Source of the DNA: a virus
IMG/VR virus record: IMGVR_UViG_3300026097_001472
Coordinates: 1 to 22,610 of that record
DNA: 22,610 nt
Strand: one strand, 5' to 3'
Part shown: positions 6,560 through 20,775 of the stretch, piece after piece
How the letters are laid out: the number at the start of each line of letters is the position of its first letter
How positions within the stretch are numbered: position 1 is the first letter of the stretch
Notes under the pieces: model-generated
Told to the model about the DNA's origin: nothing
What the model saw: only the letters and a program-made list of their open reading frames with translations
The model's database searches: none
Translations under genes and position numbers: made by a program

Positions 6560-6818
6560 AAAAAGTGAAAGATTTCAAAAAGAATATACAGATTTTTCTC
6601 GTCGTGCAGAAAAAGTAGAAAACATGCGTGTAAGAGGCGAACTGGATACATTATTAAAACAATTGCTAGCACAGGTGCGTATCATAGACATGGAACACAA
6701 AAACGTTATGTCAAAAACTGGTATAGCAGATACCGTTTCTGACAGTAGAACAAAGTTAGCTTCTATTAGAAAGAAGATTACAAAGTATTTAGAAGATTAC
6801 GAAAACAGCTTAAATTGA
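6546..6818 (+). CDS. Small helical (coiled-coil-like) protein, function unknown
   Basis: The 90-residue protein is rich in Lys, Glu, Arg and Leu, with heptad-like stretches (VRGELDTLLKQLLAQVRIID and ASIRKKITKYLEDYENSL) that suggest a helical bundle or coiled coil. No catalytic motif or membrane segment is seen. The start ATG 6546 has GGAG about 8 bases upstream and lies inside the end of the Nudix-like gene, indicating translational coupling. It is the last gene of the plus-strand gp14 operon and overlaps the convergent fibre gene by 9 bases. Genes of this kind accompany the neck genes in related phages, so an assembly role is possible but unproven. Confidence 0.65.
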   Translation: MFSLEKSERFQKEYTDFSRRAEKVENMRVRGELDTLLKQLLAQVRIIDMEHKNVMSKTGIADTVSDSRTKLASIRKKITKYLEDYENSLN

Positions 6819-8900
6819 ACTGAATGCCTTGATTGTAATGGCGCCTACCATGCTACCGTGTATTGAGCACTGATATCTGTAGTTGCCTGATATTGAGCTG
6901 GGCACTTTCCAATATAGCGTTCCTGACTGTTGACCCTGTGCGCTCGACCCAGTGCTTACAGTCCCTGTAGTTGAAACATGCACAAGTCCTGTGCTATAGT
7001 TACTAGCAGCTCCGTCTTGTATCAAGAAAGGATGACCTCCTATGGCATCTAGGTCAAAAGCAATTGTGGTGCCGCTTATAGCAAATATAGTAGGGTTATT
7101 AGTTGCTCCATATTGATCGAATGTGTATGCACTTGCACCAACATTATTAACCACTAATCGTGTTATAGCCTGCAGATATATTTTGTCAACACGCAGACTT
7201 GCGGTGGTTACATCTCCGAGATCCGTAAAGTCAGAAGCCGCACTGCTTGAGATTGTGACAGTATCTCCCAGTATACTGGTCGATATGCCAGTTCCGCCTG
7301 CTATTGTAAGTGTGTCCGTTGTAGAGTTAGCAGTAGTAGACCCACTGTCCGCATCTACAGTTGCAAAGAGATTAGGTGAAGACCCTGAATTAGTAATTGT
7401 AATGCTGTCGCTACCGGCGTCAGTTGTTATATCTATTCCTGTGCCAGCAACCAGTGTTAGGGTATCGGCAGAGCTTGCTGCTACAACATCACTCTCTCCA
7501 CTAACGCTGATTGTTTCAAACGAATTGCTTGCTGTAGAAGCCGCACTTATGGTAATTCTGTCATTGTCTGCGTCTGTGGTAAGTGTTACATTTGTGCCTG
7601 CTACTAGGGTAAAAGTATCTCCAACAGCATCGGCAACAACATTGTCTTGTCCGGTGATTGCGATAGTTGAAAAACAATTCTGGCTGTTTGTGATCGTAAT
7701 ATTACCTTCCGCATCACTTGTGGTATCGATGCCTGTTCCGCCTAAGAACAGTATAGATTCTTGATCCGTTACAGTTCGTAAGGTAGAATCATCGGCACCC
7801 ACAAATATTTCAGTTTTCGTTTCAGTTGATCTTGTAACCACAGGACTGCCATTAAGGATAAGAGTCGTGCCGTCGAATGTAAGATTCTCACCTGTATCTT
7901 GAACAACCTGTCCTGTGCTGGCATATCTTGCTAACCTATCTGCCTGTCCGGTGCTTACACCGCTTGCTTCCCCGCCTTCAGTAGTTGCTGAAATTGTTAT
8001 CGAATCACTGCCTGGACTAGTGGTTATGGAAATGTTTGGTCCGGCAACTAACTGAAGGGTATCTTCTGCTTGATCTGCAACCACATTGCTCTGACCTGAC
8101 ACTGCGATGGTGTTGAATGCCTGTGTTGTAGGTTGCGCTGACAGTGTTACGGTATTAGACTCACCGTCTGTGGTAATTGTTATATTATCGCCGATTAATG
8201 TTAGTGTGTCTGACAATTGCGCGGCCGTAATTGTATCCTCTCCACTTACAGCTATGTTTGCAAAAGAATTTTCAGTGTTCGCTACAGTGAATGTGCCGCT
8301 TGAATCGTCAACTACACTTATGCCTGCGCCTGCTACAACAGTTGTATTTGAAATTCCGGATAGATCTGGCAAATTGAGCAGATCATCATACGAACCGCTA
8401 TACGCTACCGCGCTAAGTGGATCAGTATATCCTGCACCTACAGCATCGTTGTATGAAGTGTCAGTTATTAATTTACGCCATTCGCCGGCATGCGCATAGT
8501 ATAGTGCACCTGTTTCATGAACGTGCATGGTCATGCCATGATAAGTTGCTGGGCTGTAGTTGCTGAGATCTTCCTCTAGCTGTATAGCATTGGCATATTT
8601 AATTATGTTGTTGCCAAAATCATATTCGCCTGCGGCCCAGGTTAAATCTTCGTTGGTTTCATATGGTATTTGATTGCCGCCACCGACTGCATCCAATTTA
8701 GTTGAAAAATCACTGTTTGATACATTTGATAGATCGTTCTTGGCTAGACTTACCCCGCTCTGTGTATCACCATCATACAAACGCAGAGTGTTTGTATCTC
8801 TGTCATAATAGACTTCGCCGCGGCTTCCAAATTTTCTATCAAGAAATTCGCCGTCTCTGGGTATCAGTCTGAATTGGTTTGTTATGATCGGTTGTGTCAT
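6810..8900 (-). CDS. Repetitive tail-fibre-like protein with C-terminal cupredoxin-like domain
   Basis: This 696-residue protein has three parts. Residues 1-55 form an attachment-like module (RGEVYYDRDTNTLRLYDGDT), related in pattern to the start of the other fibres here. Residues 180-555 contain five or six degenerate repeats of about 45 residues, each with F-x-T/N-I-A/S-V-S-G, then DTL-x-L-x-AG and a Thr/Ser-rich TITIS strand, as in trimeric beta-structured fibres. The last ~120 residues resemble a cupredoxin: H623 in GGHPFL and the loop YQC678-S-I-H681-G-S-M684 give the His-Cys-His-Met ligand set of type 1 copper sites, with amicyanin-like spacing. A virion adhesin role is inferred from composition and locus. 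A late promoter precedes it. It ends 9 bases into the convergent small helical gene. Confidence 0.8.
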   Translation of the reverse strand: MTQPIITNQFRLIPRDGEFLDRKFGSRGEVYYDRDTNTLRLYDGDTQSGVSLAKNDLSNVSNSDFSTKLDAVGGGNQIPYETNEDLTWAAGEYDFGNNIIKYANAIQLEEDLSNYSPATYHGMTMHVHETGALYYAHAGEWRKLITDTSYNDAVGAGYTDPLSAVAYSGSYDDLLNLPDLSGISNTTVVAGAGISVVDDSSGTFTVANTENSFANIAVSGEDTITAAQLSDTLTLIGDNITITTDGESNTVTLSAQPTTQAFNTIAVSGQSNVVADQAEDTLQLVAGPNISITTSPGSDSITISATTEGGEASGVSTGQADRLARYASTGQVVQDTGENLTFDGTTLILNGSPVVTRSTETKTEIFVGADDSTLRTVTDQESILFLGGTGIDTTSDAEGNITITNSQNCFSTIAITGQDNVVADAVGDTFTLVAGTNVTLTTDADNDRITISAASTASNSFETISVSGESDVVAASSADTLTLVAGTGIDITTDAGSDSITITNSGSSPNLFATVDADSGSTTANSTTDTLTIAGGTGISTSILGDTVTISSSAASDFTDLGDVTTASLRVDKIYLQAITRLVVNNVGASAYTFDQYGATNNPTIFAISGTTIAFDLDAIGGHPFLIQDGAASNYSTGLVHVSTTGTVSTGSSAQGQQSGTLYWKVPSSISGNYRYQCSIHGSMVGAITIKAFSSI
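7242..8264 (-). repeat. Tandem ~45-residue beta repeats within the fibre gene
   Basis: Copies begin near residues 213, 262, 410, 461 and 512 of the fibre (FANIAVSGEDTI, FNTIAVSGQSNV, FSTIAITGQDNV, FETISVSGESDV, FATVDADSGSTT), with a more diverged unit near 365. Each ends in a strand such as SITISA. The copies are conserved as protein but only loosely as DNA, which suggests old duplications kept for structure. Confidence 0.75.
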
Positions 8901-8920
8901 GGGTATCCCGGCTTTACAAT

Positions 8921-8928
8921 TATTTATC
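8921..8928 (-). promoter_or_regulatory. Late promoter before the cupredoxin fibre gene
   Basis: On the minus strand GATAAATAATTGTA lies 20 bases before the ATG at 8900. It shares the block TAAATAATTGTA with the promoter of the neighbouring fibre gene at 9849-9856. It sits in the 76-base gap between the two fibre genes, in which no convincing terminator was seen. Confidence 0.6.
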
Positions 8929-8976
8929 GGAAATTTATTAGATTAAAGAATACATAATTGTTCTACCGGTAAGCAA

Positions 8977-9843
8977 CTATCTAGCCATACAAACCAAATA
9001 TTGTCCAGGAGCAAAGTGGGTTGTATTATTTGAACCTCGCGTTCCGAAGTATCCAAAATTATTCTCTGAACTTATTGCGCCTGGCACTCCGGAAACGCTG
9101 CTGTCCCAATGAGGATCGTAGATCGAGTTGGTATTATACCACCAGCGCATGTCATAGGTTCCACCTCGCCATGGTTCAGGACCGTTGTTTCTTGCATAAA
9201 AACCGCGCACCCTGCCATAGCCCGGTATGGTGGTTCGCTGTGATCCCGAGCCATACAAAAAGTCTTCGGTATCATTTTGCGGTAAAACAACAGCAAAGTT
9301 GTTTGCGGAGTGTTCGTCAAAAGGACCGCCGCCGCTTATGTATAATAGATATTCTCTATTGGCTACATTTCTTTTCCATGAAAGGCTTCCTGGGCTCCAT
9401 AAAGCAAAGTTGAACGCTGTGGTATTATATGCAGTTCCGTCGTTATTCCATGCTCTGGAAATGTTAGTATTATTACCCTGGGCATAATCATAGGATCTGA
9501 TACAGGTCCAACCGCCGCCTTGGGTCGTAAAATCACAGTATGTGTGAAACGCAGAATCAGAGGCGCTTGGTTTGATCCAGTAAAAACCGTTTTCTCTTAC
9601 GCCGTAGTTGTCTCTTAAATCTTTGGCACTTAATGCAGGGTTACTCTGTGTAAGTCCGGGAATTCCCTCGCCGGTTCGTCGACCAATACGAAATTGGCCG
9701 CTGTTATTGTTTCTAAATTCTAATCTTTCTGTATCAGTGTTGTAGCGAATATCCCCTTCGGTATTACTACGCTGTGCTGAAGTTCCGCTTGGTAATATCA
9801 AACTGTCGTTTGTATCAAATACTGTGTTTTTTAAATCTGCCAT
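8977..9843 (-). CDS. Tail-fibre adhesin with fibrinogen-like GGGWT domain
   Basis: This 288-residue protein has an N-terminal module (MADLKNTVFDTNDSLILPSG, then GDIRYNTDTERLEFRN) shared with the adhesins at 10704-11711 and 13097-14071. After a short linker comes NPALSAKDLRDNYGVRENGF, then YWIKP and the hallmark FHTYCDFTTQGGGWTCI (residues 99-115) of the bacterial fibrinogen-like YCDxxxxGGGWT family. In animal ficolins and fibrinogen this fold binds sugars and acetyl groups, so glycan binding on the host surface is a reasonable inference. The rest is rich in Gly, Asn, Trp and Tyr and ends YLVCMAR. It has its own perfect TATAAATA promoter five bases before the ATG and no Shine-Dalgarno. The oxygenase gene at 9862-10506 lies just upstream in the same direction. 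Confidence 0.8.
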   Translation of the reverse strand: MADLKNTVFDTNDSLILPSGTSAQRSNTEGDIRYNTDTERLEFRNNNSGQFRIGRRTGEGIPGLTQSNPALSAKDLRDNYGVRENGFYWIKPSASDSAFHTYCDFTTQGGGWTCIRSYDYAQGNNTNISRAWNNDGTAYNTTAFNFALWSPGSLSWKRNVANREYLLYISGGGPFDEHSANNFAVVLPQNDTEDFLYGSGSQRTTIPGYGRVRGFYARNNGPEPWRGGTYDMRWWYNTNSIYDPHWDSSVSGVPGAISSENNFGYFGTRGSNNTTHFAPGQYLVCMAR

Positions 9844-9848
9844 ACAAT

Positions 9849-9856
9849 TATTTATA
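9849..9856 (-). promoter_or_regulatory. Perfect TATAAATA late promoter 5 bases before a fibre gene
   Basis: On the minus strand TATAAATA is followed by ATTGT and then the ATG at 9843. It is the full T4 late consensus octamer. The spacing predicts a transcript starting at the start codon, in line with the lack of a Shine-Dalgarno. Confidence 0.65.
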
Positions 9857-9861
9857 CGACT

Positions 9862-10506
9862 TTATTTTAAAAATGCACCTAGATTAAAACTTATTGAAAT
9901 TCTAAGGTCTTCACTACTATTTGGTTCTACAGCATGCATGATATCGGCCATCCAAATTAATAAATCTCCATCTTTAGGAGAAATTGACCTCACAGGGTTT
10001 AATATGGGATTTTGAATGTTTTTTAGAAAAATTTCAGGAATATGCAGTATGCTTGGTTCAGTTTTATCTTTGTTTGGCTCTTCTCTGCTCTGATGGAAAA
10101 GTATGTTTCCGCTGTTGTCAGGAACATTTACATAGTATGCACCTGTTAACAGGCAAGGATTTATTAATCTATCATATGCAGGTGCGTCAACATGTTTGTG
10201 AAAAACATTAAATGTGTTTGTAAAATTTATATTAAACCAAATGTTCATTATTTTCAGTTCAAGTTGATTGACCAGTTCAATTTCATCACCGACAATTTTA
10301 GCTTTCTCTTCAATCATTCGGATTAAAAATTCTAATCTTGCATCCTCTTTTAGATTAATGCTGTGATAGCCTCCCCTATTTGAGATTGTTTGTCCTTGAG
10401 GGTTTGAACCATACACTTCCATTGCAGTGTCTCTGAGATTTATAAAGTGCTTATCTTGGTCGGCGTAACGCCAAACATAATCGTAGGTTAAATCTAATCG
10501 TTCCAT
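9862..10506 (-). CDS. 2-oxoglutarate/Fe(II)-dependent oxygenase-like protein (adhesin operon)
   Basis: This 214-residue protein has the double-stranded beta-helix signature of phage 2OG-Fe(II) oxygenases (TIGR02466-like). The segment MNIWFNINFTNTFNVFHKH leads into H105-V-D107 as the HxD iron ligands, then LTGAYYVNVPDNSGNILFH, PKDGDLLIWMADIMH with H191 as the distal ligand, and LRISISFN with R202 placed to bind 2-oxoglutarate. It should hydroxylate a substrate using O2 and 2-oxoglutarate; the substrate is unknown. ATG 10506 has AGGGA about 6 bases upstream. It is the last gene of the run S74 fibre - fibre - halogenase - fibre - zinc ribbon - oxygenase, with gaps or overlaps of at most about 30 bases, so it is made together with adhesins. 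Confidence 0.8.
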   Translation of the reverse strand: MERLDLTYDYVWRYADQDKHFINLRDTAMEVYGSNPQGQTISNRGGYHSINLKEDARLEFLIRMIEEKAKIVGDEIELVNQLELKIMNIWFNINFTNTFNVFHKHVDAPAYDRLINPCLLTGAYYVNVPDNSGNILFHQSREEPNKDKTEPSILHIPEIFLKNIQNPILNPVRSISPKDGDLLIWMADIMHAVEPNSSEDLRISISFNLGAFLK

Positions 10507-10515
10507 AATATTCCC

Positions 10516-10704
10516 TTATGCAGGAATATTTACCCATTTATTTAAAGGACAGGTTGATCCTGAAAATCTTGCCTTTGCAGGAATGAGGCAAAAGCATTCT
10601 TTGCACTGCATTGTTATCGGTATATATCTGTCACAGGTTTTACAAATATTGTGTCGGCTGTTTATAATTTTTTCGTCGACAAACGCTGTGTCTTTCCAAT
10701 GCAT
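10516..10704 (-). CDS. Small zinc-ribbon protein, function unknown
   Basis: The 62-residue protein has C21-x2-C24 and C34-x2-C37 (ICKTCDRY and QCKECFC), a zinc-ribbon spacing, plus C39 and a CPLNKW motif near the end. Similar small proteins sit beside fibre genes in marine T4-like phages. ATG 10704 is chosen because it overlaps the stop of the upstream fibre gene by one base (TAATG) and has GAG just before it; a TTG eight codons upstream would also keep the frame open. It may help fibre assembly or regulate the operon, but nothing here shows which. Confidence 0.7.
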   Translation of the reverse strand: MHWKDTAFVDEKIINSRHNICKTCDRYIPITMQCKECFCLIPAKARFSGSTCPLNKWVNIPA

Positions 10705-11711
10705 TAACTCTTTGCCCACCAAAGCCAATACATCCAGTTGTTTGAAGTTGGGGAATTAATACCCCACGTGCTTGACCAATTTGGTTCTGAAAAGTTTCTA
10801 TTTGAATAGTTAACAGCCATATCTTGATTTCCGGTCCATGCATGATGCTCAATATTACAACCGTCCGATCTACACCCCAACGCATTTATCACAGCCATGC
10901 GCTGGTTTTCACAGTTTGCCCTGCCAAAATCCAGCTGATTCGAAGTTACCAATTCGCCGACCGGTCCTGATCTATATCTGTCTTTGGATTCTTGGGCACT
11001 GCCTTTGATAAAGTTTAAACCTCCAATCAACGTCCTTCCCGAACCGCCGGTTGTGCTTAAATCCGGACCGCCGTTGCCGGATAAAAAGCTAGAAAGACTT
11101 CTACCTCTTCCGTTTTGATTTAACCAACCACTGTTGGTATATGCTATTTCAGTAGACGCACCAAAATAGTCGCCAGATATGTCTTCATCCTGAAAACCCT
11201 GCATGATGCAGATATCATCATAGTCATAATCAAACCACAAGCGGCCCTTGTATGTCTCCTCCCTGTTGGCGGTTTCTGGAGTGCCAAATGTAGTCGTGTT
11301 TATCCAGTTGGTATACCATGTTCCGGGTGGGCCTGCTCGTTGTCCGTGATCTAAAGTTGAAGATATTCCTGCAATTAAAATATAAGCAGTTTCGTTTTCT
11401 GGATTTACAAACAATTTTGTTCGTATTACATTACCACTTTTGTCTGTAACATAGATGTTTCCACTCTTTTGTCCTATTGCGTTTACTATGGTAGTAACGC
11501 TTGTGCCAGAAGGGATAGCTCTATCAGGCGAAGATCCGTCCAAGCTGGCTACCCTAAGCCAGCGTGCACCGTCATAAATTTCTAATTGGCCTTCATCTGT
11601 ATTATATCTAATTTCTCCGTTGGATGGCGAAACAGGACGCTGTGCGGTTGTGCCAACAGGAATTGTTATCGCGCCGGTGTCGTCAAATGTGGTTTTTTGT
11701 AAAGTTGCCAT
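10704..11711 (-). CDS. Tail-fibre adhesin sharing the common N-terminal module
   Basis: The 335-residue protein starts MATLQKTTFDDTGAITIPVG, then TTAQRP, GEIRYNTDEGQLEIYDGARW, the same attachment-like module as the adhesins at 8977-9843 and 13097-14071. After a linker (about 55-90) comes a Gly-, Asn- and Trp-rich globular region with segments such as YILIAGISSTLDHGQRAG, RLWFDYDYDDICIMQGF and CRSDGCNIEHHAWTG, ending WMYWLWWAKS. It looks like a diverged fibrinogen-type lectin head, but the GGGWT hallmark is absent. Its ATG lies 29 bases inside the end of the halogenase gene, with AGGAT about 8 bases upstream, so translation of the two is likely coupled. Receptor binding is inferred from the module and locus. 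Confidence 0.75.
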   Translation of the reverse strand: MATLQKTTFDDTGAITIPVGTTAQRPVSPSNGEIRYNTDEGQLEIYDGARWLRVASLDGSSPDRAIPSGTSVTTIVNAIGQKSGNIYVTDKSGNVIRTKLFVNPENETAYILIAGISSTLDHGQRAGPPGTWYTNWINTTTFGTPETANREETYKGRLWFDYDYDDICIMQGFQDEDISGDYFGASTEIAYTNSGWLNQNGRGRSLSSFLSGNGGPDLSTTGGSGRTLIGGLNFIKGSAQESKDRYRSGPVGELVTSNQLDFGRANCENQRMAVINALGCRSDGCNIEHHAWTGNQDMAVNYSNRNFSEPNWSSTWGINSPTSNNWMYWLWWAKS

Positions 11712-13080
11712 GATCTAAATCCTGCAGTCCGTATCTTTCCAGAGTCTTTCTAGCGGTGTCTGAATCTATTTTGCCTATTCCAGCCAATACCCAATTATAC
11801 AGCGCACTTCCTGCACAACCAAAATAGTGATCTATCGTTAATGCACTAGGAACCTGGTTTTTTGCTACATCTAAAACATATTCAGCACCTGGCGTTAGTG
11901 TGTTTCCTGCTGTGATATGTCGCCAAAACTCTGTATCAGTTCTTCCGCCCATATAATGAACCACCAAAAAATCTCTCATATCGTCGTAGAGTTTTGCCAT
12001 ATGAGAATTATATTTTTCAATGCGTTGTGGTAAAATAGTATCTTTTGAGTCATCTTTTAGATATTCTAATGCAAACACAACGGTTTGCATGATTGTGCAG
12101 TGGATGCTTGTTGCCTCTAACGGTTCTGAAAATGCCGCTGCCAAACCTAATGCTAGACAGTTTCCTTTCCATAATTCTTCACTGCGACCGCTGTTGAACT
12201 GGAATTCCCGCTGTATCTTAACATCGCCATACAACTGTCTAATTTCTTCGTGTGCTTGTTCCTTCGTGCAAAAATCACTAGAGTAAACATATCCACAACC
12301 ATATCTTTCAGCCGTTGGAATTTTCCAACACCAACCATTATTCATTGCTGTGGCGGTTGTTAAACGTTCATAGTTTGGTTCTATAGGCATCCTAAATGCG
12401 ATTGCAGAGTCAACAGGCAGATTTTCCTTATAAGATTTCCATTTCATGTCCATTGCACCGCACAGTGTTCTTTTAAACCCTGTGCAGTCAACAAAAAAAT
12501 CTCCTTCTATTTCTTCGCCGTTTTCGCATACCAATCGCTTGATAGTATTTGTTTCTTGATCAACATTTACACCCCATACGGTGTTAACAATTTTCTCTAC
12601 ACCGCTTTCTATCGCAATTTTTGAGAAGTAATCACCTACCTTGAATGCATCAAAGTGATAACTTCCAGATCCCCAAATTCCTTTTTCCCAGTTTCTTCCC
12701 AGTTGTGAAGCACGATGAAGATGATCTGGATCATGCATAAGTTGTAAACAGAATTCTACATCAGGGACTAGACCGTTTGTGCTAGAGCCATCTAACGGTG
12801 CAAAGTATGAGGAACCGTCGCCGGTCCAGTTTACGTGCTTGATGCCTGATTTGTGTGTTGCATTGGCATGCTCAAAAAACTGTTTTTGGTCGATTCCAGT
12901 ATCGAACCAAACATTATACAAAAAATCATGCAACAATCTTGTGCTGCCTTCGCCTGCGCCTACAATTGGAATACTGTCTGATTCAACCAGCACCACTTTA
13001 TGTTTTCCTGGTTGGGCCCTTGCAAATGTAAGTGCTGCCATCCATCCTGCGGTTCCGCCGCCGACTATTACTATTTTCAT
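11683..13080 (-). CDS. Flavin-dependent (tryptophan-halogenase-like) halogenase 1
   Basis: This 465-residue enzyme belongs to the PrnA/RebH class, which uses FADH2, O2 and halide to make hypohalous acid and halogenate aromatic substrates. Visible motifs are the FAD-binding GGGTAGW (7-13), a candidate catalytic lysine K77 in THKSGIKHVNW (aligned with the K79 region of RebH), the diagnostic WCWKIP (W250-x-W252-x-I-P255), and SEPLEATS with E319 matching the active-site Glu segment. It is shorter than RebH (about 530). A cyanophage halogenase (VirX1) has been characterised as a broad iodinating enzyme, so viral members can be active. It lies between two adhesin genes: 16 bases after one and overlapping the next by 29. 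No flavin reductase is in the window. Its substrate is unknown. Confidence 0.88.
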   Translation of the reverse strand: MKIVIVGGGTAGWMAALTFARAQPGKHKVVLVESDSIPIVGAGEGSTRLLHDFLYNVWFDTGIDQKQFFEHANATHKSGIKHVNWTGDGSSYFAPLDGSSTNGLVPDVEFCLQLMHDPDHLHRASQLGRNWEKGIWGSGSYHFDAFKVGDYFSKIAIESGVEKIVNTVWGVNVDQETNTIKRLVCENGEEIEGDFFVDCTGFKRTLCGAMDMKWKSYKENLPVDSAIAFRMPIEPNYERLTTATAMNNGWCWKIPTAERYGCGYVYSSDFCTKEQAHEEIRQLYGDVKIQREFQFNSGRSEELWKGNCLALGLAAAFSEPLEATSIHCTIMQTVVFALEYLKDDSKDTILPQRIEKYNSHMAKLYDDMRDFLVVHYMGGRTDTEFWRHITAGNTLTPGAEYVLDVAKNQVPSALTIDHYFGCAGSALYNWVLAGIGKIDSDTARKTLERYGLQDLDHGNFTKNHI

Positions 13081-13096: not shown

Positions 13097-14071
13097 TTAT
13101 CTTACCCAAACAATGCCAGGGTATGCTTCAACAACACCCGAATTAGACCATTCGCCTACACCGCAGCTCCATGTTCTCCCTGGATTGCCAGCGCCGCCGC
13201 CGAAACCAAACCCTGAATCTGAGCCACTGAATGTGGTATTTCCTTGTGTATATCCGCTGCCATTATCAAGCGGACACCCTATTCGTGCGCCGGCTCTGGC
13301 TACATGAGAATGACCTGCATTGTCAGGATTTTGTTGCGACCCATTATTAGCCCAGGTATTTATACCATATCTCATAACATAGTCTTCGGACCCGCTTTGA
13401 TCTCCGAATTGTCCATCTGTGCCAGAAAAATAAAAACTAGAGTCAAAATACCTTACGCTGGTTCCTAGGCTAGGTGTTTGACTGTCGCTTCCATATGCAT
13501 TTCCATTACCAACACTGTTTAGATTCATTGCGTCTACCATTGTTCTTGCGGTGGTAAAATTCATTATCGCAGGAATAATTCCGTTCATGTCTAATAAAAC
13601 ATGATTGAAAGGATAATAGAGATATGAATAATACTTGCTCCACATGTTCGACAGTAGATTAAAATCATTCCAATTCCATGGCTCATTGTTTGTCCAATAA
13701 GCACTGCCACTAGGCATGTCTCCCCTATTATGAACTTTGAGTATTGCAACCCAATGTTCATTTTGGTGCCAATTAAATTTTGTATATGCCTGATATGTTA
13801 CACCTTCGTGCTGATACCAATAAGGACCGTCGCCCGCATCATTGTTGTCATCGTAAATTTGCGATGCTGAAGTAGCTGGGTTCGCTTGATCGGTGCCTAC
13901 TGGCAATGTGATGTTTATCCAGTTTGTGCCGTCATAAAATTCGGTGGCATTTGTGTCTGTGTTGTAGCGTATCATACCTTGCGATGCAGGATTGGGCCTC
14001 TGCGCAGTTGTGCCCTTGGGCAACACAATGCTTTCGTTGGTATTAAATGAAGTTCGCTTGAGCGTAGCCAT
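13097..14071 (-). CDS. Tail-fibre adhesin with shared N-terminal module and fibrinogen-like head
   Basis: The 324-residue protein begins MATLKRTSFNTNESIVLPKG, then TTAQRP and MIRYNTDTNATEFYDGTNW, the common attachment-like module. From about residue 60, NPATSASQIYDDNND, YQAYTKFNWHQNEHWVAILK and later ARIGCPLDNG resemble a diverged fibrinogen-type fold without the GGGWT hallmark. The end is Gly- and Ser-rich and closes AYPGIVWVR. Two adjacent ATGs are possible (14074 and 14071); the second is chosen because its paralogues start MATL/MADL and AGAGG then has the better spacing. It follows the S74 fibre gene by 4 bases and precedes the halogenase by 16, so the three are one transcript. Confidence 0.75.
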   Translation of the reverse strand: MATLKRTSFNTNESIVLPKGTTAQRPNPASQGMIRYNTDTNATEFYDGTNWINITLPVGTDQANPATSASQIYDDNNDAGDGPYWYQHEGVTYQAYTKFNWHQNEHWVAILKVHNRGDMPSGSAYWTNNEPWNWNDFNLLSNMWSKYYSYLYYPFNHVLLDMNGIIPAIMNFTTARTMVDAMNLNSVGNGNAYGSDSQTPSLGTSVRYFDSSFYFSGTDGQFGDQSGSEDYVMRYGINTWANNGSQQNPDNAGHSHVARAGARIGCPLDNGSGYTQGNTTFSGSDSGFGFGGGAGNPGRTWSCGVGEWSNSGVVEAYPGIVWVR

Positions 14072-14075
14072 CATC

Positions 14076-14861
14076 TTACCTCTTAAGATCGTCTATTTGT
14101 TGCTTCAGTTCTTTTACCGCTTCAATTAGATATGCTGTCAATCTGCTGTAGGCCACACTGTTAGGATTCTTATCCTTGTCTAAGGATACAAGTTCAGGCA
14201 AAATTTCGGATACTTGTTCTGCTATCAACCCTGATTCTTGCAATCCCGTTTGCTTTCTGTTATATTTCACTCCAGCAAGCTGTGTGATTTTATCAAGCGC
14301 ATCGGTTATAGGCTCTATATTTTCTTTGTAGACCAACGATGACGTTTCGACTATTGTATCCGCTTGCATTGTGCCTTCTACAGTAAGATTGTCAACTTCT
14401 AATGTTCCTGTGCTTGGAACAAATTCTAGTTTTCCGCTAGTTGTTCTGACAGCATTGGCAACTCCTGTTGTAGCTGTGCTTAAAAGAGGATAATGAGTAT
14501 TTGAGTCTGTTGTATTATTTGATATAATTGCTCCTACAGCCGCAAAAGAAAGATTTCCGCTTCCGTCGGTTACTATTGCTTCTAAATTGTTTCCATCAGC
14601 TGTTGGCAAAGTCCATGTAACATTACTAGGAACAGTCGCGGCGGCTTTAAATCCTACATATCCTGTATTATCCGAATCTGCAAAACGCAAAGCACTTTCT
14701 TCATTCAGTTGTGCATTGCCTTCTATTAACACTCTACCAGTTCCGGTTGGGTCGAGTATGATGTCCGCATCGTCATCGGTGGTAATAGTTGTGTTGTTAG
14801 ATGCTAGCAACCCACCGAATGTGGGTGCGCCAATTCTGCCTGAGGAGGTTCTTCTTCCCAT
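14076..14861 (-). CDS. Tail-fibre protein with C-terminal S74 chaperone domain
   Basis: The 261-residue protein has a fibre-like N-terminal part with Thr/Asp-rich beta segments (TTITTDDDADIILDPTGTGR, WTLPTADGNN) and a C-terminal intramolecular chaperone of the endosialidase type (peptidase S74). This domain trimerises the fibre and often cuts itself off. SSLVYKENIEPITDALDKI (174-192) corresponds to the family SDxxxKxxI site, with S174 and K179 at the right spacing, although the usual Asp after Ser is Ser. GLIAEQVSEILPELV and YLIEAVKELKQQI match the following helices. ATG 14861 has AGGA about 10 bases upstream and a late promoter 30 bases upstream. It heads the adhesin/halogenase/oxygenase operon. 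Confidence 0.85.
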   Translation of the reverse strand: MGRRTSSGRIGAPTFGGLLASNNTTITTDDDADIILDPTGTGRVLIEGNAQLNEESALRFADSDNTGYVGFKAAATVPSNVTWTLPTADGNNLEAIVTDGSGNLSFAAVGAIISNNTTDSNTHYPLLSTATTGVANAVRTTSGKLEFVPSTGTLEVDNLTVEGTMQADTIVETSSLVYKENIEPITDALDKITQLAGVKYNRKQTGLQESGLIAEQVSEILPELVSLDKDKNPNSVAYSRLTAYLIEAVKELKQQIDDLKR

Positions 14862-14922: not shown

Positions 14923-15177
14923 ATGGATAGTTTACAAATATATATATGTAACGAAAACAAAATTCCAAATCTGTTTTTTTTAAGATTTCTTAAAGAATTT
15001 CTCGATTTACATCCTGAAATTAGAGACAATCGATACCCTGCTAAGTATCTTAATTTTTTATTAAAAAATATTTACAAATGTAAAATTTTAGTTGCCGACG
15101 ACGGGAAGGTAATATTGCGTTTTAATAAACGCATAGACAAGACACATTTTTTATTAAAGTTCAATAGTTTATATTAG
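14923..15177 (+). CDS. Small protein of unknown function
   Basis: The 84-residue protein is Lys-, Leu-, Phe- and Asn-rich and ends FLLKFNSLY. The frame is open upstream to 14587, but that part lies opposite the S74 fibre gene and has fibre-shadow composition, so ATG 14923, with AAAGAGAG about 10 bases upstream, is the likely start. No motif is recognised. It is AT-rich like the oxygenase cassette that follows, and its 3' end overlaps the convergent gene at 15161-15508 by 17 bases. It could be a real small phage gene or a remnant; coding is supported only by the start signal and a full-length frame. Confidence 0.5.
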   Translation: MDSLQIYICNENKIPNLFFLRFLKEFLDLHPEIRDNRYPAKYLNFLLKNIYKCKILVADDGKVILRFNKRIDKTHFLLKFNSLY

Positions 15178-15508
15178 AAATTTGTAACGAAATTCCTAAA
15201 TTTCTAAATTTTTCTTTAATTTTATATACACCGTGTTCACCTGAAAATGTTTCGTAGCCTTCGGTATCACTTAAAAACAGATTATAGGTTACCAAGTAAT
15301 ATTCTACTAAAGGCTTGTGTGCTACGTATAATCCTATGAATCCTGGACTATAGTAAAGCTGTTCCCATAATTCAATTTCTTCAATCGTAAAATTTCTATG
15401 AATCGGTTTCATAGTTGCAGATACGTTTGCGGGTAATGTCCCTGTATTTAATGGATTCGATTCCCACGGATTTTGAAGAATGTGTTTAGTAGTTTTCAAA
15501 ATAGCCAT
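15161..15508 (-). CDS. Unknown conserved phage protein, short paralogue
   Basis: The 115-residue protein is related to the gene at 20766-21215. Both start with F/LKTT-x2-IL-x2-P and share the block FTIEEIELWEQLYYSPGFIG (there LKVEDVDYWEVLHEGSAGIG), then YVAHKPLVEYYLVT (there YASWQPYAEFYMIT), and a YETF-x-G segment. This copy lacks the last ~35 residues of the other. I recall relatives in marine T4-like phages without assigned function. It starts at ATG 15508 with no Shine-Dalgarno; TAAATA lies four bases upstream. It borders the left side of the oxygenase/halogenase cassette, as its paralogue borders the right side in the same orientation. Confidence 0.7.
   Translation of the reverse strand: MAILKTTKHILQNPWESNPLNTGTLPANVSATMKPIHRNFTIEEIELWEQLYYSPGFIGLYVAHKPLVEYYLVTYNLFLSDTEGYETFSGEHGVYKIKEKFRNLGISLQISNINY
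15175..15206 (+). terminator. Possible weak hairpin terminator after the small gene
   Basis: TAGAAATTT (15175-15183) and AAATTTCTA (15198-15206) are perfect inverted repeats with a 14-base loop, followed by a T-rich run (AATTTTTCTTT). The stem starts at the stop codon of the gene at 14923-15177. The stem has almost no G-C pairs, so termination would be weak and the match may reflect AT-rich sequence. Confidence 0.25.
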
Positions 15509-15512
15509 AATG

Positions 15513-15518: not shown

Positions 15519-15534
15519 GATCATTTTTCCAACA

Positions 15535-15542: not shown

Positions 15543-15565
15543 ATTTTCTTTAAGGATATCGAATA

Positions 15566-16195
15566 ATGAGCACTAGAGTTAACGGACTGTTTCCTGGAGA
15601 ATTACAACCAGATCAAAGTTTAGCTGGGGGGATCGATATTTTTGAAAATGCGTGGAAAAATCCAAAATATGCTATAGATCAGGTAGAATCTGTTTGCAGC
15701 GATCCCGAAAAAGGCGTATATTGGCAACAAGCAGAAACAGTAGGTCATGGGCCTATACAGGACATGCGAACAAATCAGATATGCCATATTACCTATCAAG
15801 CAGATGTTACCGGCAACGGTGTAATGCAAAATATACATAATCAGTTCTACGTTTTACTATTAGCTGCGTCAATTCCGTATGCAAAAAGATACGGAATGGA
15901 GGAAGGTCTATTTCATGAACAATATTCAATGTTACGTTATAGACAAAATCAGGAATATAAAGCTCATTATGATAGTAACACCGGCATGGGAAGAGCTATT
16001 TCTGCATTATGTTATCTCAATGATGATTATAAAGGCGGAGAATTAGAATTTGTAAACCAAAAAATACAAATTAAACCGAAAGCAGGAATGTTAATATTAT
16101 TCCCCTCTAATTTTACGTTTTCCCATAGATCAATGCCAGTTACTCACGGAACAAAATACGCTATGGTGACCTGGATACGGGATAGAGAGTTTTGA
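15566..16195 (+). CDS. Prolyl-4-hydroxylase-like 2OG-Fe(II) oxygenase (cassette gene 1)
   Basis: The 209-residue protein carries a canonical prolyl-4-hydroxylase-type catalytic core in its second half. H134-Y-D136 (YRQNQEYKAHYD) is the HxD iron motif, followed by RAISALCYLNDDYKGGELEF and PKAGMLILFPSNFTFSH with H187 as the distal ligand. K197 in MPVTHGTKYAMVTW is the lysine that binds 2-oxoglutarate in this subfamily. All key residues are present, so activity is expected; known members hydroxylate prolines in proteins or related substrates. It has a clear Shine-Dalgarno and is the first gene of a seven-gene operon; its stop overlaps the next start (TTGA). The proline- and glycine-rich adhesins nearby are attractive but unproven substrates. 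Confidence 0.87.
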   Translation: MSTRVNGLFPGELQPDQSLAGGIDIFENAWKNPKYAIDQVESVCSDPEKGVYWQQAETVGHGPIQDMRTNQICHITYQADVTGNGVMQNIHNQFYVLLLAASIPYAKRYGMEEGLFHEQYSMLRYRQNQEYKAHYDSNTGMGRAISALCYLNDDYKGGELEFVNQKIQIKPKAGMLILFPSNFTFSHRSMPVTHGTKYAMVTWIRDREF

Positions 16196-16839
16196 TAATA
16201 GATCTGAATGTTAAATATGTCAACAATCTACCTGTAGCTATCTTCGATAACTTTTATAATGAAGAAGAATATCAAAGAATTTTTAATGAATTACTGTTTT
16301 TAAACGGGCCTGAAAAATTGTTAGATCCGGAATTTTCCGGATCTGCTTACGATTTGGATGATAACAACAACAAGATTTATCGCAAAAAAAATAAAGCTAC
16401 ATTTTTAGAAGATGTCTATCATGATAGAAGATATTCGGATATTTTAAACATAAATCGTAAATTATTCAATCCTAACATTATTGAAAAATTAGAAGAAATA
16501 GATTTGTTTTTTAGATATCTAAAAATATCTAACAGAGATACAACCATGATTAGTTATTATGAAAATAATGACTATTATAAATTTCATAGAGACGATGCTG
16601 TTTTAACTGCATTATGTTGGTTTTATAAAATACCAAAAAAATATTTTGGCGGAGATCTTGAACTTGAGCAAAACGTTTTTATTGAAAGTATTTGTAACAG
16701 ATTAATTTTATTTCCGTCGATTATCGAACACAAAGTAACAGATGTAAACATGGACCCTGAATTTTTAAACAACAACAACGGCAGATTTACAATGACCCAG
16801 TTTATCTTCATGGAGCGCAGTAGTGAAAGAGAGAATTAA
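16192..16839 (+). CDS. 2OG-Fe(II) oxygenase-like protein (cassette gene 2)
   Basis: The 215-residue protein has the iron motif H132-R-D134 in SYYENNDYYKFHRDD, then LCWFYKIPKKYFGGDLEL, NRLILFPSIIEHKV with H180, and R198 in GRFTMTQFIFM as the likely 2-oxoglutarate-binding Arg. This is a complete HxD...H...R set. It differs clearly in sequence from its neighbours, so the cassette is not a recent tandem duplication. The start is probably TTG 16192, which overlaps the previous stop as TTGA and follows GAGAG; no ATG lies near. The N-terminal 60 residues (VNNLPVAIFDNFYNEEEYQR) resemble the usual lead-in of P4H-like enzymes. The substrate is unknown. Confidence 0.8.
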   Translation: MIIDLNVKYVNNLPVAIFDNFYNEEEYQRIFNELLFLNGPEKLLDPEFSGSAYDLDDNNNKIYRKKNKATFLEDVYHDRRYSDILNINRKLFNPNIIEKLEEIDLFFRYLKISNRDTTMISYYENNDYYKFHRDDAVLTALCWFYKIPKKYFGGDLELEQNVFIESICNRLILFPSIIEHKVTDVNMDPEFLNNNNGRFTMTQFIFMERSSEREN

Positions 16840-17329
16840 ATATAAAGTTATTGATAATTTTTTAGATGCAGAGCAGTCTGATAAAATAGAGCAGTATATG
16901 TGCGTGTGGAATGATTTTCCGTGGTTTTTTAACAAAGAAATAACTTTTGCAGATAATGAAAACGAAAATTACTTTTATTTTATACACATGTTTTATCGTC
17001 AATTCAATATTTCTAGTCAATTTTATAAAGAATTAGTAGAACCGATTGTCGACAAAATCAATCCTAGAGCTTTGATAAGAATAAAAGGAAATCTTTACCC
17101 TAACCTCAACGAACCAATTAAAGGCGAGCTACATAGTGATTATGATTTTAATCATCATGGTGCGATCTATTTTGTGAATACCAATAATGGTTATACTCTT
17201 TTAGATGATGAAATCAAGATCGATTCTATAAAAAATAGATTATTACTTTTCGAACCTCATGTTCCACACAGAAGTGTAGGATGCACAGATAACAAATGTA
17301 GAGTAAACATTAATTTTAATTATTTTTAA
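16823..17329 (+). CDS. 2OG-Fe(II) oxygenase-like protein, small (cassette gene 3)
   Basis: The 168-residue protein begins YKVIDNFLDAEQSDKIEQYM after a short lead, and has H104-S-D106 (KGELHSDYDF), HGAIYFVNTNNGYT, NRLLLFEPHVPH with H149, and R160 in KCRVNINFNYF. This is a complete HxD...H...R set in a compact form seen in marine phages. The start is GTG 16823 with GGAG about 9 bases upstream, lying 17 bases inside the previous gene, which points to coupled translation. The pattern N-G-Y-T after the iron motif is typical of this phage subgroup as I recall it. The substrate is unknown. Confidence 0.82.
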   Translation: MKERIKYKVIDNFLDAEQSDKIEQYMCVWNDFPWFFNKEITFADNENENYFYFIHMFYRQFNISSQFYKELVEPIVDKINPRALIRIKGNLYPNLNEPIKGELHSDYDFNHHGAIYFVNTNNGYTLLDDEIKIDSIKNRLLLFEPHVPHRSVGCTDNKCRVNINFNYF

Positions 17330-17330
17330 T

Positions 17331-17996
17331 ATGAAAATTATCACTTTTAAAAATCAAGAGCCTGTTACCGATTTTGCACCTGTGTATGATTACTCTATGT
17401 GTGAAGTTTTTCTGGATAATATTGATAATAATGCATTGTCTGATTTGATCATGACCAAAGAAAAAGAAATAATTGAACAAACTTTACCTGTTGATAGTTC
17501 AAGTCCGGATGGATATACCGGGTTAGGAATAAACAGTTTAACATCAAGATACACAAGATTCAATGTTATGAAGTGGCGCAATCCTTGTGTCGTTGATTTA
17601 AAAAATGCAATTTATGAATCATATTTAAAGTTTTTAGAATATCATCAAGTCAAACGTAGAAAAGTTTGGATAAGTTGTTGGGCCAATGTTCTGCGTTCAG
17701 GAGAAAGTATACAACCTCATATCCATTGTGTTGACGAATATACATATTTGAGCGGAAATTATGTGGTTCAAGCAGAAACTACAAAAACATTTTATTTAAA
17801 TCCTATAAATCAAATTAACGAGCCTGCAACTTATGAAGTTGTAAATACTCCTGGAAATCTAGTTATCTTTCAATCAAATATACCGCATTTTACCGATATA
17901 CATACTAGTAACGAACCAAGAATAACGATAGCATTTGATCTTATAGTTGACGAAATGGATACCACGGTTAATACTGTGTTATTCGATGGAGAATAA
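17331..17996 (+). CDS. Putative 2OG-Fe(II) oxygenase with HxH motif (cassette gene 4)
   Basis: The 221-residue protein resembles TIGR02466-like oxygenases. VWISCWANVLRSGESIQPHIH leads to H130-I-H132, then YLSGNYVVQAE, PGNLVIFQSNIPHFTD with H186, and PRITIAFDLI with R197. The first iron motif is HxH, not HxD; D135 or E136 shortly after might supply the acidic ligand, or the site may be altered. It starts one base after the previous stop, with no Shine-Dalgarno, so it probably depends on translation of the gene before it. The oxygenase family call is good; catalytic competence is less sure. Confidence 0.72.
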   Translation: MKIITFKNQEPVTDFAPVYDYSMCEVFLDNIDNNALSDLIMTKEKEIIEQTLPVDSSSPDGYTGLGINSLTSRYTRFNVMKWRNPCVVDLKNAIYESYLKFLEYHQVKRRKVWISCWANVLRSGESIQPHIHCVDEYTYLSGNYVVQAETTKTFYLNPINQINEPATYEVVNTPGNLVIFQSNIPHFTDIHTSNEPRITIAFDLIVDEMDTTVNTVLFDGE

Positions 17997-17999
17997 TAA

Positions 18000-18605
18000 A
18001 TGAATTTTGCAAATAATGGATATTTTATACAGAAACAGGTTTTATCTAAAGAAATTGTCGAATTAATAACACAATATGCGCTGTTTGACGAAATGCAGAA
18101 TCCTAGTATCGGTGATGAACAAATTAAAAATGCACATAGCAGATATGCTGACCCTTTAATGGAAGCTGTATTACTGAAAATACAGAAAACTATAGAGTCT
18201 ATTACTGATTTATCGTTGCACCCGACTTATTCTTATTATCGTATCTACAGAAGTGGTGATGAACTTGTTAATCACACAGATAGACCATCCTGTGAAATTT
18301 CTGCAACAGTATGTTTTGATTATGAATACTCAAATAAAGATTTTCAATGGCCTATATATATGAACGGAACGGCTTTAATATTAGAGCCTGGAGATATCGC
18401 GGTATACAGAGGATGCGAAGTTCCGCATTGGCGAGATAAATTTATAGGAGAAGAAGACGATTGGCATATTCAAGGTTTTTTCCATTATGTAGATGTGAAT
18501 GGTCCTTACGAAAATTACATGTATGACGGACGCTCCACAGTAGGAGAACTGAAAACAAAACAAGAATATAAAAATCAATATCCTGACTACATAAAAATAT
18601 TATGA
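18000..18605 (+). CDS. 2OG-Fe(II) oxygenase-like protein (cassette gene 5)
   Basis: The 201-residue protein has YYRIYRSGDELVNHTD with H92-T-D94, ATVCFDYEYSNKDFQWPIY, LEPGDIAVYRGCEVPHWRD with H143, and HIQGFFHYVDVNGPY near the end. The HxD and distal His are clear, but the usual Arg or Lys after the distal His is not obvious, so 2-oxoglutarate must be held by another residue or the site differs. The ending HYVDxNGPY is seen in a subgroup of phage and bacterial oxygenases as I recall them. ATG 18000 has GGAG about 8 bases upstream. The stop overlaps the next start as ATGA. Confidence 0.76.
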   Translation: MNFANNGYFIQKQVLSKEIVELITQYALFDEMQNPSIGDEQIKNAHSRYADPLMEAVLLKIQKTIESITDLSLHPTYSYYRIYRSGDELVNHTDRPSCEISATVCFDYEYSNKDFQWPIYMNGTALILEPGDIAVYRGCEVPHWRDKFIGEEDDWHIQGFFHYVDVNGPYENYMYDGRSTVGELKTKQEYKNQYPDYIKIL

Positions 18606-19192
18606 TCAACACAGAAATACAAACATGGTTTCCTAAAAGTGTTTTTCAAGCCGAAAACGTATTAACAAATAACCAATTAAAAAATTTGTATAATTTTTTA
18701 ACTCCGTTTTTTGAAAAACAATCGTTACGAACTGGCATGTTAAATGTAGATTCGACACATAGTATGTGTAATCTAAATAATTATGCCGAAATACAAGAAT
18801 TAAAGAAAGAAATATTGTTTGCTGTATCTAATTTTGCATTAGCCATGGGATATTCTGAAAAACAAATTTCTACTTTGTCATTCATAAATATATGGGCTAA
18901 TAGGTCATATCAAGGAGATTTTAATTTCCCACATGTGCATTCTGGAAGCCAATTCTCTGGAGTATTTTACGTTTGTGTTCCAAATAATTCAACAATTACA
19001 TTCTATAACGATATGACAAGAACACTGATCGAGCCAGAAAATTATAATGAATTAAGTTTTAACTACGTAAGATATAAATGTGTAAAAAATTCGATTTTGG
19101 TTTTTCAAAGTAATTTTTTACACGGTAACGAATTCCAAGATGAAGGCGAAAAAATTGCTGTCTCTTTTAATTTAAAAATGGATATTATATGA
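18602..19192 (+). CDS. Putative 2OG-Fe(II) oxygenase with HxH motif (cassette gene 6)
   Basis: The 196-residue protein has the TIGR02466-like layout: FINIWANRSYQGDFNFPHVH with H111-V-H113, SGVFYVCVPNNSTITFYND, SILVFQSNFLHGNEF with H174, and EKIAVSFNLK, where K184 stands in place of the usual Arg. Like cassette gene 4 it has HxH instead of HxD. The N-terminus (TEIQTWFPKSVFQAENVL) matches the family lead-in. Its ATG overlaps the previous stop (ATGA) and its own stop overlaps the halogenase start in the same way, so the oxygenase and halogenase are translationally linked. Activity and substrate are unproven. Confidence 0.74.
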   Translation: MINTEIQTWFPKSVFQAENVLTNNQLKNLYNFLTPFFEKQSLRTGMLNVDSTHSMCNLNNYAEIQELKKEILFAVSNFALAMGYSEKQISTLSFINIWANRSYQGDFNFPHVHSGSQFSGVFYVCVPNNSTITFYNDMTRTLIEPENYNELSFNYVRYKCVKNSILVFQSNFLHGNEFQDEGEKIAVSFNLKMDII

Positions 19193-20775
19193 AAACTGAA
19201 AATATAGTAATTGTTGGAGGCGGATCCGCCGGATGGATGACTGCTGCAACATTGATAACAGCCTTTCCTAAAAAATGTATTACTGTTGTAGAGTCGCCGG
19301 ATGTCCCTACAGTAGGCGTAGGTGAATCTACAATTTTAGGAATACGAAAATGGGCAAGATACATCGGATTAGATGAAAAAGATTTTTTAAAACATACTGA
19401 CGGATCCTATAAACTTAGCATTAAATTTACAAATTTCTATAAAAAAGATAGTGGCGGATTTCATTATCCTTTTGGTAGCCCAATTACAATGAGTGATAGA
19501 AATCCTGTATCGGATTGGCATTTTAAAAAATTTTTTCACCCAGAAACAGATGTCGAGGATTTTGTTAGGTGTTTGTTTCCGTCTGCGGCGTTATTTGAAA
19601 ATAATAAATTTACAAAAGACTACCCCGATATTTTTGATGCAGATGATGTAGTCGCATATCATTTTGACGCAACTAAATTTGGCATTTATTTGAGAGACAA
19701 CATCTGTATTCCTAACGGAGTAAAGCACGTAAAGAACACAGTAAATCACGTCGAAACAAGTAATCAAGGAATTGATTTTATTGTTTGTGACAATAATAAA
19801 ATTTTTGCTGATTTATTTGTGGATTGCACTGGTTTTAAAAGTTTACTCTTAGAACAATCCCTACAGGAACCATTTGAGTCATACGACAAAATTTTACCTA
19901 ATAATAAAGCATGGGCAACAAAGATAGATTATAAAGACAAAAAACAAGAACTAGAAGGATTTACAAACTGCACAGCAATACAAAACGGATGGTGTTGGAA
20001 TATACCTCTTTGGTCTAGATTAGGAGCAGGTTATGTATATTCTGATAGATATGTGTCTGATAAACAGGCGCTTGAGGAATTCAAAAATTATTTAACTTCT
20101 GAAAAAATGCAGGTTACTAGGACGCCCGAAGAAGTTGATCAACTAGAATTTAAAAATATATCAATAAAATCGGGCATACACACAAGAACATTTGTCAAAA
20201 ATGTAGTAGCAATAGGTCTTTCTGCTGGATTTATTGAACCTTTAGAAAGTAATGGATTGTTTTCTGTCCACGAGTTTCTTTTTAAACTTACTGATATACT
20301 GCAAAGACAGGAAATAAATCAGTTCGATAGAGACATGTATAATATTAGCATAAGAGACATGTTTGATGACTTTGCAAAATTTGTATCATTGCATTATGCA
20401 TTATCGCACAGAGACGATACCGAATATTGGAGAGACATACAGACAAGACAGTTTTGTGACAAACATGGAGATCCGTATTTTCCTTATATTGGGAGAACCG
20501 ACGCCTATTACAATATGTCATGGAGATATATGACAGAATGGGGACATCCTAAAGACAGTGTAATGAATGGAATTACATATATTTCAACTGGAATGCATGT
20601 TTTTATGATGAATAAGTATAGGGTAGATGATTTAGAATATAGGACAGGACGTAATTTCGAAATCGAAATAAATTCAATAGTAGAACAATGGGAACAACTG
20701 AAAAATAATTGGCAAAAAATATCTGCCGAATCACTAAGTTTATATGATTATTTGAAACAAGAAATTCATAAATAA
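19189..20775 (+). CDS. Flavin-dependent (tryptophan-halogenase-like) halogenase 2
   Basis: The 528-residue protein is close in length to RebH and PrnA. It has the FAD-binding GGGSAGW (10-16), GVGEST (43-48), candidate catalytic K75 in GSYKLSIKFTNF, VDCTGFKSLL (211-220), the diagnostic WCWNIP (W268-x-W270-x-I-P273) and FIEPLESNG with E350 in the active-site Glu segment. All family hallmarks are present, so it should form hypohalous acid at a flavin and pass it through the lysine to an aromatic substrate. In related enzymes this is free Trp or a larger indole or phenol; here it is unknown. It ends the seven-gene cassette and differs widely from halogenase 1, so the two are not recent duplicates. 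Its 3' end overlaps the convergent gene by 10 bases. Confidence 0.9.
   Translation: MKTENIVIVGGGSAGWMTAATLITAFPKKCITVVESPDVPTVGVGESTILGIRKWARYIGLDEKDFLKHTDGSYKLSIKFTNFYKKDSGGFHYPFGSPITMSDRNPVSDWHFKKFFHPETDVEDFVRCLFPSAALFENNKFTKDYPDIFDADDVVAYHFDATKFGIYLRDNICIPNGVKHVKNTVNHVETSNQGIDFIVCDNNKIFADLFVDCTGFKSLLLEQSLQEPFESYDKILPNNKAWATKIDYKDKKQELEGFTNCTAIQNGWCWNIPLWSRLGAGYVYSDRYVSDKQALEEFKNYLTSEKMQVTRTPEEVDQLEFKNISIKSGIHTRTFVKNVVAIGLSAGFIEPLESNGLFSVHEFLFKLTDILQRQEINQFDRDMYNISIRDMFDDFAKFVSLHYALSHRDDTEYWRDIQTRQFCDKHGDPYFPYIGRTDAYYNMSWRYMTEWGHPKDSVMNGITYISTGMHVFMMNKYRVDDLEYRTGRNFEIEINSIVEQWEQLKNNWQKISAESLSLYDYLKQEIHK

Follow-up and report, generated by a model that had tools for sequence, protein, structure and literature searches.

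Why would a marine T4-like virus encode two flavin-dependent halogenases and a series of 2-oxoglutarate (2OG)/Fe(II)-oxygenase-like proteins among the genes for its fibres and adhesins? This gene set is found in the IMG/VR virus record IMGVR_UViG_3300026097_001472, whose 22,610 nucleotides (nt) were analysed over their full length (the window) and are probably a genome fragment. As a tentative answer, which falls a little short of an even chance, we propose that the locus is a late adhesin-tailoring cassette, in which halogenases and 2OG/Fe(II) oxygenases oxidatively tailor glycine-rich receptor-binding adhesins. The observed basis consists of the gene content, late-type promoter motifs, conserved catalytic residues, a clade-specific linkage to adhesin genes and the likeness of an oxygenase of phage Syn10 to protein hydroxylases; the protein substrate, the modified residues and the effect on adhesion or stability are steps that we infer from it.

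Profile searches confirmed the inventory given in an earlier note on this DNA, i.e. two flavin-dependent halogenases, seven oxygenase-like genes, five fibre genes and two glycine-rich adhesins (Table 1), with both glycine-rich genes falling past position 20775, the end of the stretch given there. The proposed division was also confirmed: one halogenase and one oxygenase lie within the fibre operon, and six oxygenases and the second halogenase form a separate operon. The five fibre-like genes are all encoded on the minus strand within 6810-14861. Read from 14861 down to 6810, this operon encodes an S74 fibre, a TAQRP fibre, halogenase A, a second TAQRP fibre, a DUF6171-like protein and an oxygenase, followed by the fibrinogen-like fibre and the connector; neighbouring genes overlap or are separated by short gaps. 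The plus-strand operon (15566 to 20775) comprises six oxygenases followed by halogenase B, whose genes overlap or are 1-3 bases apart. Convergent to halogenase B and coming from the right are the two glycine-rich genes and a small conserved gene that overlaps the halogenase B end, a convergent overlap also present in L007 (L-numbered names denote comparison loci).

Both halogenases match PF04820 over nearly the whole model length and contain the features that define flavin-dependent halogenases, namely the GxGxxG motif binding flavin adenine dinucleotide, the catalytic Lys (K77), the WxWxIP motif and the EPLE glutamate (E319). Across 19 aligned viral homologues, the Lys and the Glu are invariant and the other motifs invariant or nearly so. 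In a tree of 149 viral halogenases, halogenase B falls into a 31-member clade together with the syn9 counterpart of VirX1 (Shimodaira-Hasegawa-like approximate likelihood ratio test 99), and its best PDB match is VirX1 itself (6qgm, E=2e-95). Halogenase A belongs to a separate, distant deep clade. A "fibre-near" label derived from an incomplete TAQRP fibre marker, when mapped on this tree, was scattered and gave no single origin.

The association of the two enzyme classes with adhesin genes was quantified in complete cyanophage genomes using a rotation test (5,000 rotations), with glycine-rich open reading frames (ORFs) defined as those of at least 120 amino acids and at least 20% Gly (0-4 per genome). 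A glycine-rich adhesin gene is present at a distance of up to 5 kb for nine of ten VirX1-clade halogenases, against 0.9 expected and with none of the rotations reaching this count, but for none of the six halogenases of other clades. Among uncultured contigs, 18/22 VirX1-clade and 18/66 other halogenases are found within 6 kb (Fisher p=1e-5), or 15/19 versus 8/37 when loci are counted per contig (p=5e-5); this set includes phage records from the genome test, so the two tests overlap, and the p-values are too small because cyanophage genomes share synteny by descent. Two oxygenase families show the same tendency within 12 kb of glycine-rich genes (phrog_274: 18/29, 5.5 expected; phrog_2954: 7/8, 1.7 expected). 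The TAQRP marker provided a weaker test in the complete genomes, where 9/18 halogenases lie within 10 kb (2.2 expected, p=0.0006) and 2OG genes in general are not near fibres (26/142 versus 19 expected, p=0.14); the glycine-rich marker separates the halogenase clades far better. The check for co-occurrence with fibre modules suggested in the earlier note was thus borne out for VirX1-clade halogenases, phrog_274 and phrog_2954, but not for other halogenase clades and most 2OG genes. Since these latter enzymes often lie away from fibres, part of what that note had named as speaking against its hypothesis was indeed found, and its interpretation is partly supported, in a narrower form that pairs VirX1-clade halogenases with glycine-rich adhesins.

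Proximity could also be positional only. Fibre modules are known hot spots of recombination, and the enzymes would gather in such a recombination-prone fibre or hyperplastic region of T4-like genomes and be carried along with the fibres, which would not be their substrates. Shared descent of the synteny, the many 2OG genes located elsewhere and the distinct composition of the enzyme operon are in line with this (GC content of 31.7% for 15160-20775 versus 42% for the fibre operon, a difference which suggests that the enzyme operon was acquired separately). However, none of 46 control auxiliary genes (talC, psbA/D, phoH, petE) lies within 5 kb of a glycine-rich gene in the rotation test, so auxiliary genes in general do not settle in this region. 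The link is also clade-specific and occurs in at least two genome architectures, the cyanophage type upstream of gp13 and the window type beside gp15 and the connector, although genomes of the same type have their synteny in common by descent. We consider a purely positional association unlikely.

Comparable islands recur in many other phages, which indicates that the arrangement in the window is not due to chance. In syn9, S-RIM44, P-RSM6, Sf-CH3, Sf-CH11 and S-CREM1, large fibres and short fibres are followed by one or two halogenases and then several oxygenases, in several cyanophage islands just before gp13, and S-SRM01 carries a halogenase between a tail fibre and the gp37-gp38 adhesin tip gene. 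From 600 candidate stretches, a scan of IMG/VR gave at least 596 halogenase relatives that were confirmed, and 80 loci were kept. In some of the contigs kept, as many as five halogenases and roughly a dozen oxygenases adjoin fibre or connector genes. An orthologous enzyme set is common to the window, L043, L050, L051 and L066 (52-55% identity for the oxygenase at 15566 and 48-51% for that at 18000), and in the window, L043, L050 and L051 it is conserved together with the fibres; L036 occupies the same genome site as the window. Eight uncultured marine contigs (L061, L062, L059, L056, L067, L041, L108, L091) carry about four or five halogenases each. Three of them (L059, L061, L062) share the same deep halogenase clades, so these enzymes look like a kept set and not like recent duplicates. 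Pelagibacter phage HTVC008M (L021) has a glycine-rich ORF near five oxygenase genes (1138-5901), a pattern by which the adhesin link may extend past cyanophages.

The characterised VirX1 (PDB 6qgm) matches CPUG_00131 of Syn10 end to end, and its locus comprises, in the direction of transcription, three glycine-rich fibres (22-35% Gly) and a second halogenase, then VirX1, and downstream of it a run of oxygenase-type genes. One of these fibres matches Gly_rich_2, the Pfam family to which the adhesin of the window also belongs. A JmjC_2 protein of the same cassette has the histidyl-hydroxylases NO66 and MINA as best PDB matches (E 3e-6), and enzymes of this type hydroxylate protein residues (PMC9994133). 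JmjC_2 genes are also found in this cassette of S-RIM44, syn9, S-CREM1, Sf-CH3 and P-RSM6. The adjacency of VirX1-group genes and glycine-rich fibre genes in many phages suggests, without proving it, that the enzymes may chemically finish the virus's own adhesins.

Five of the seven oxygenase-like genes of the window pass the Pfam 2OG-Fe(II) cut-off (starting at 9862, 15566, 16192, 17331 and 18602). Those at 16823 and 18000 are recognised by PHROGs only, as phrog_274 "DNA endonuclease V" and phrog_2954 "ferrochelatase"; judged by their HxD motif and cassette context, both look like 2OG oxygenases, and the names appear misleading. These labels spread via phage annotation. The metal-site motif is HxD in the genes at 15566, 16192, 16823 and 18000, HxH...H...R at 9862, where H103, H105 and H191 are invariant, and HxH..H at 17331 and 18602. 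In PF13759-type oxygenases, HxH...H is invariant over 37 sequences in place of the usual HxD...H, which suggests a three-histidine or otherwise non-canonical iron site, and the chemistry of this family should therefore not be assumed. The AlphaFold2 (AF2) model of the 9862..10506 product (predicted local distance difference test, pLDDT, 84) adopts the 2OG double-stranded beta-helix and matches first the uncharacterised structures 3bvc and 2rg4, then PHD2, P4H and vCPH, and also SnoK and KanJ. Because prolyl hydroxylases and small-molecule enzymes are matched alike, the fold alone does not choose a substrate.

Late expression is suggested by late-type promoter motifs. Eight NATAAATA sites occur in the window, and four of them sit 6-31 nt upstream of gene starts (0.28 expected, p<5e-5), namely those at 8900 (21 nt), 9843, 14861 (31 nt) and 15566 (24 nt), the last two being the first genes of the two operons. 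The late-type promoters put forward in the earlier note thus held for NATAAATA, while the strict form TATAAATA was at chance level in the window scan (2 versus 2.15 expected). Late expression would also fit enzymes that modify the host surface or receptor (lipopolysaccharide, an outer-membrane protein or a pigment), e.g. against progeny sticking to debris or superinfection. Receptor-modifying genes would likewise be linked to those of receptor-binding proteins, and the halogenase loci in L080 and L044 adjoin glycosyltransferase or heptose genes. We regard this as improbable, given that one member of the Syn10 cassette resembles protein hydroxylases and that the annotations show no sign of export, which was not specifically sought. 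That the oxygenases shift 2OG pools and nitrogen signalling, an idea which Sullivan et al. 2010 put forward for cyanophages (PMC3037559), agrees with the large number of 2OG enzymes across cyanophage genomes but leaves their sequence diversity, the adhesin linkage and the halogenases unexplained, and seems very improbable here.

Under adhesin tailoring, the genes for fibres, glycine-rich adhesins, both halogenases (one of them of the VirX1 clade) and the 2OG/Fe(II) oxygenases would be expressed together late in infection. The receptor-binding proteins would be hydroxylated and halogenated on their side chains by these enzymes as the fibres fold and are mounted, and seawater would supply the halide (chloride, bromide or iodide). 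Virus-encoded collagen hydroxylases offer a precedent. Among the possible substrates, the glycine-rich (Pam3/gp38-type) adhesins are the most likely. The AF2 model of the 21224..22141 product is of modest confidence (mean pLDDT 64) and has a single PDB match below 1e-3, the TNF-like plus glycine-rich region of the Pam3 cyanophage fibre (7ypx_A, E=1.8e-4, probability 1.00); a sequence search of the glycine-rich protein against PDB gave no match. The glycine-rich domain of this myocyanophage fibre is described as receptor-recognising (PMC9608196). As to the residues, His is enriched in glycine-rich proteins linked to VirX1-clade halogenases (2.3 versus 1.2%, p=0.001) and in those of JmjC loci (2.9 versus 1.8%, p=0.004), which is a hint only, given the 14 residues tested and the lack of independence among homologous proteins. 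Trp and Tyr, which the earlier note had named as targets, gained no support from composition (4.7% in both linked and other proteins).

Alternatively, the enzymes could serve to make or modify a small molecule in the infected cell, for instance an indole or amino acid derivative that carries halogen and hydroxyl groups and acts as antibiotic, signal or pigment. PrnA-type halogenases use free Trp, VirX1 accepts many free small aromatics in vitro (PMC8407142), and a halogenase/2OG/carbamoyltransferase cluster in S-SSM6a was suggested either to produce a metabolite or to decorate the capsule (PMC7824862); the role usually put forward is antibiotic protection (PMC2984593, PMC9964418). Two distinct halogenase clades with many oxygenases also resemble a pathway. 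However, no scaffold-forming enzyme, transporter, carrier protein or precursor peptide is present among the annotated proteins of the window, and both the late-type motifs and the linkage of VirX1-clade halogenases to adhesins, which other auxiliary genes do not show, speak against it. We therefore consider a small-molecule product unlikely. Flavin halogenases with ribosomal peptide substrates do exist, e.g. SrpI (PMC10858898; see also PMC12615548), and no report on the natural substrate of the VirX1 clade was found in the open-access literature searched.

Several observations weigh against adhesin tailoring, in addition to the shared descent, the activity of VirX1 on free aromatics and the unenriched Trp and Tyr described above. 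Halogenases of other clades are frequently encoded far from fibre genes, most 2OG genes are dispersed, and the VirX1-clade halogenases of S-B64 and L003/L004 adjoin recombination or sliding-clamp genes. The C-terminal domains of the fibres are unrelated between contigs despite conserved enzymes, and across the compared contigs no conserved fibre C-terminal partner of halogenase A was found. The window showed no gene for a JmjC protein or a flavin reductase, and we know of no modified virion protein. Taking both sides into account, we would still put forward, as possible rather than probable, that in marine T4-like phages a halogenase-oxygenase system is dedicated to tailoring glycine-rich receptor-binding adhesins post-translationally; this would be the natural role of VirX1-type halogenases and account for part of the cyanophage 2OG expansion. 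The roles suggested in earlier publications are antibiotic protection, nitrogen signalling and metabolite synthesis; the clade-specific link to a named adhesin class provides a concrete candidate substrate that is testable on cultured phages (Syn10, syn9, S-CREM1). If the proposal is true, virion adhesins would be proteins tailored by enzymes; predictions of receptor binding that use only the sequence would then be incomplete, and phages would offer a source of protein-level halogenases and hydroxylases.

The remaining features complete the picture of the locus. T4-like genes comprise a tail sheath, a head-tail adaptor, a gp15-type sheath stabiliser and the baseplate-fibre connector; the stabiliser marks the T4-like structural module flanking the island. 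The fibre at 8977..9843 had fibrinogen matches in the PDB search, and its fibrinogen-C/COLFI-like region resembles animal fibrinogen and intelectin domains. The DUF6171-like protein shows the cysteine pattern C..C...C..C.C...CPLxKW, most members of its family end with CPxxKW, and it recurs in contigs with halogenases, oxygenases and fibres (L028, L068, L070, L076, L097-L099, L103, L106). Two genes belong to a small family, a possible fibre chaperone, that is often encoded directly downstream of a fibre or glycine-rich gene (window, L007, L043, L050, L051); among the contigs compared, the family of the 15161..15508 protein was seen only in those with halogenase islands. A possible small AT-rich ORF without family lies between the two operons (14758-15177, plus strand), and no known RNA families or tRNAs were found in the window. 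A near-identity search of 50,697 phage records gave no near match, and the window therefore has no isolate relative there; a close-relative scan using halogenase A alone confirmed none.

Table 1. Annotated features of the window with coordinates, strand and supporting evidence.
Feature	Coordinates	Strand	Evidence
Tail sheath, cut by contig end	1..1137	-	phrog_10581 tail sheath, E=4.5e-50
gp15-type tail sheath stabiliser	4677..6167	+	PF16724, E=2.5e-23
Baseplate wedge-tail fibre connector/long fibre protein	6810..8900	-	phrog_677, E=9e-51
Fibre, TAQRP-type N-terminus and fibrinogen-like/COLFI C-terminal region	8977..9843	-	PF00147, E=1.7e-6; PF01410, E=6.9e-7
2OG/Fe(II) oxygenase-like, inside fibre operon	9862..10506	-	PF13759; HxH..H..R metal site
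Small cysteine-rich DUF6171-like protein	10516..10728	-	phrog_13558, E=1.2e-14; PF19668, E=1.8e-5, just under cut-off
Fibre, TAQRP..IRYNT N-terminal domain (shared with 13097..14074)	10704..11711	-	phrog_29838; start overlaps halogenase A end
Halogenase A, between two fibre genes, outside VirX1 clade	11683..13080	-	PF04820, E=1.5e-94; tree
Fibre, TAQRP..IRYNT N-terminal domain (shared with 10704..11711)	13097..14074	-	Shared N-terminal domain
Fibre, C-terminal Peptidase_S74 (endosialidase-type) chaperone domain; first gene of operon	14076..14861	-	PF13884, E=9.7e-11
Small conserved protein	15161..15508	-	Homologues in L007, L043, L050, L051; no Pfam/PHROG match
2OG-Fe(II) oxygenase (HxD), first gene of enzyme operon	15566..16195	+	PF13640, E=9e-20
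2OG-Fe(II) oxygenase (HxD)	16192..16839	+	PF13640, E=1e-7; HRD motif
2OG-Fe(II) oxygenase-like	16823..17329	+	phrog_274, E=4.5e-40; HSD motif
2OG/Fe oxygenase-like, HxH type	17331..17996	+	PF13759, E=4e-9
2OG/Fe oxygenase-like	18000..18605	+	phrog_2954, E=1.5e-46; HTD motif
2OG/Fe oxygenase-like, HxH type	18602..19192	+	PF13759, E=1.2e-11
Halogenase B, VirX1-clade flavin-dependent halogenase	19189..20775	+	PF04820, E=8.5e-99
Second member of small conserved family, directly downstream of glycine-rich adhesin	20766..21218	-	Convergent overlap with halogenase B, as in L007
Glycine-rich receptor-binding adhesin, 35% Gly	21224..22141	-	PF21722; AF2 fold match
Further glycine-rich adhesin (41% Gly), running off the contig end	22150..22608	-	Glycine content

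Compared to known systems, the locus is built from enzyme and fibre families that are already known, and their recurrent combination is undescribed as far as searched; no adhesin link for these enzymes was found in that open-access literature. The prnA and 2OG genes of cyanophages belong to the same families as the enzymes of the window but were published as auxiliary metabolic genes, without an adhesin link (PMC3037559, PMC2984593). SrpI, MppI and MibH share the superfamily of the halogenases and show that ribosomal peptides are possible substrates (PMC10858898, PMC12615548), whereas they are encoded in clusters for ribosomally synthesised and post-translationally modified peptides with leader peptides, and the window has no precursor peptide. 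PBCV-1 vCPH and the mimivirus collagen lysyl hydroxylase embody the idea of a virus hydroxylating structural proteins; the oxygenase at 9862-10506 resembles P4H and vCPH in fold only (template modelling score about 0.6) and has HxH instead of HxD. Among adhesins of the Pam3 gp24/S16 gp38 type, the Pam3 fibre is the sole confident PDB match of 21224-22141, while the part of its description available does not mention modification enzymes. Compared to VirX1 of Syn10 (6qgm), halogenase B is only distantly similar, and the window differs in genome position and in having a non-VirX1 halogenase within the fibre operon; both loci nevertheless share the halogenase clade, the active-site residues, the glycine-rich fibres and the run of oxygenases.

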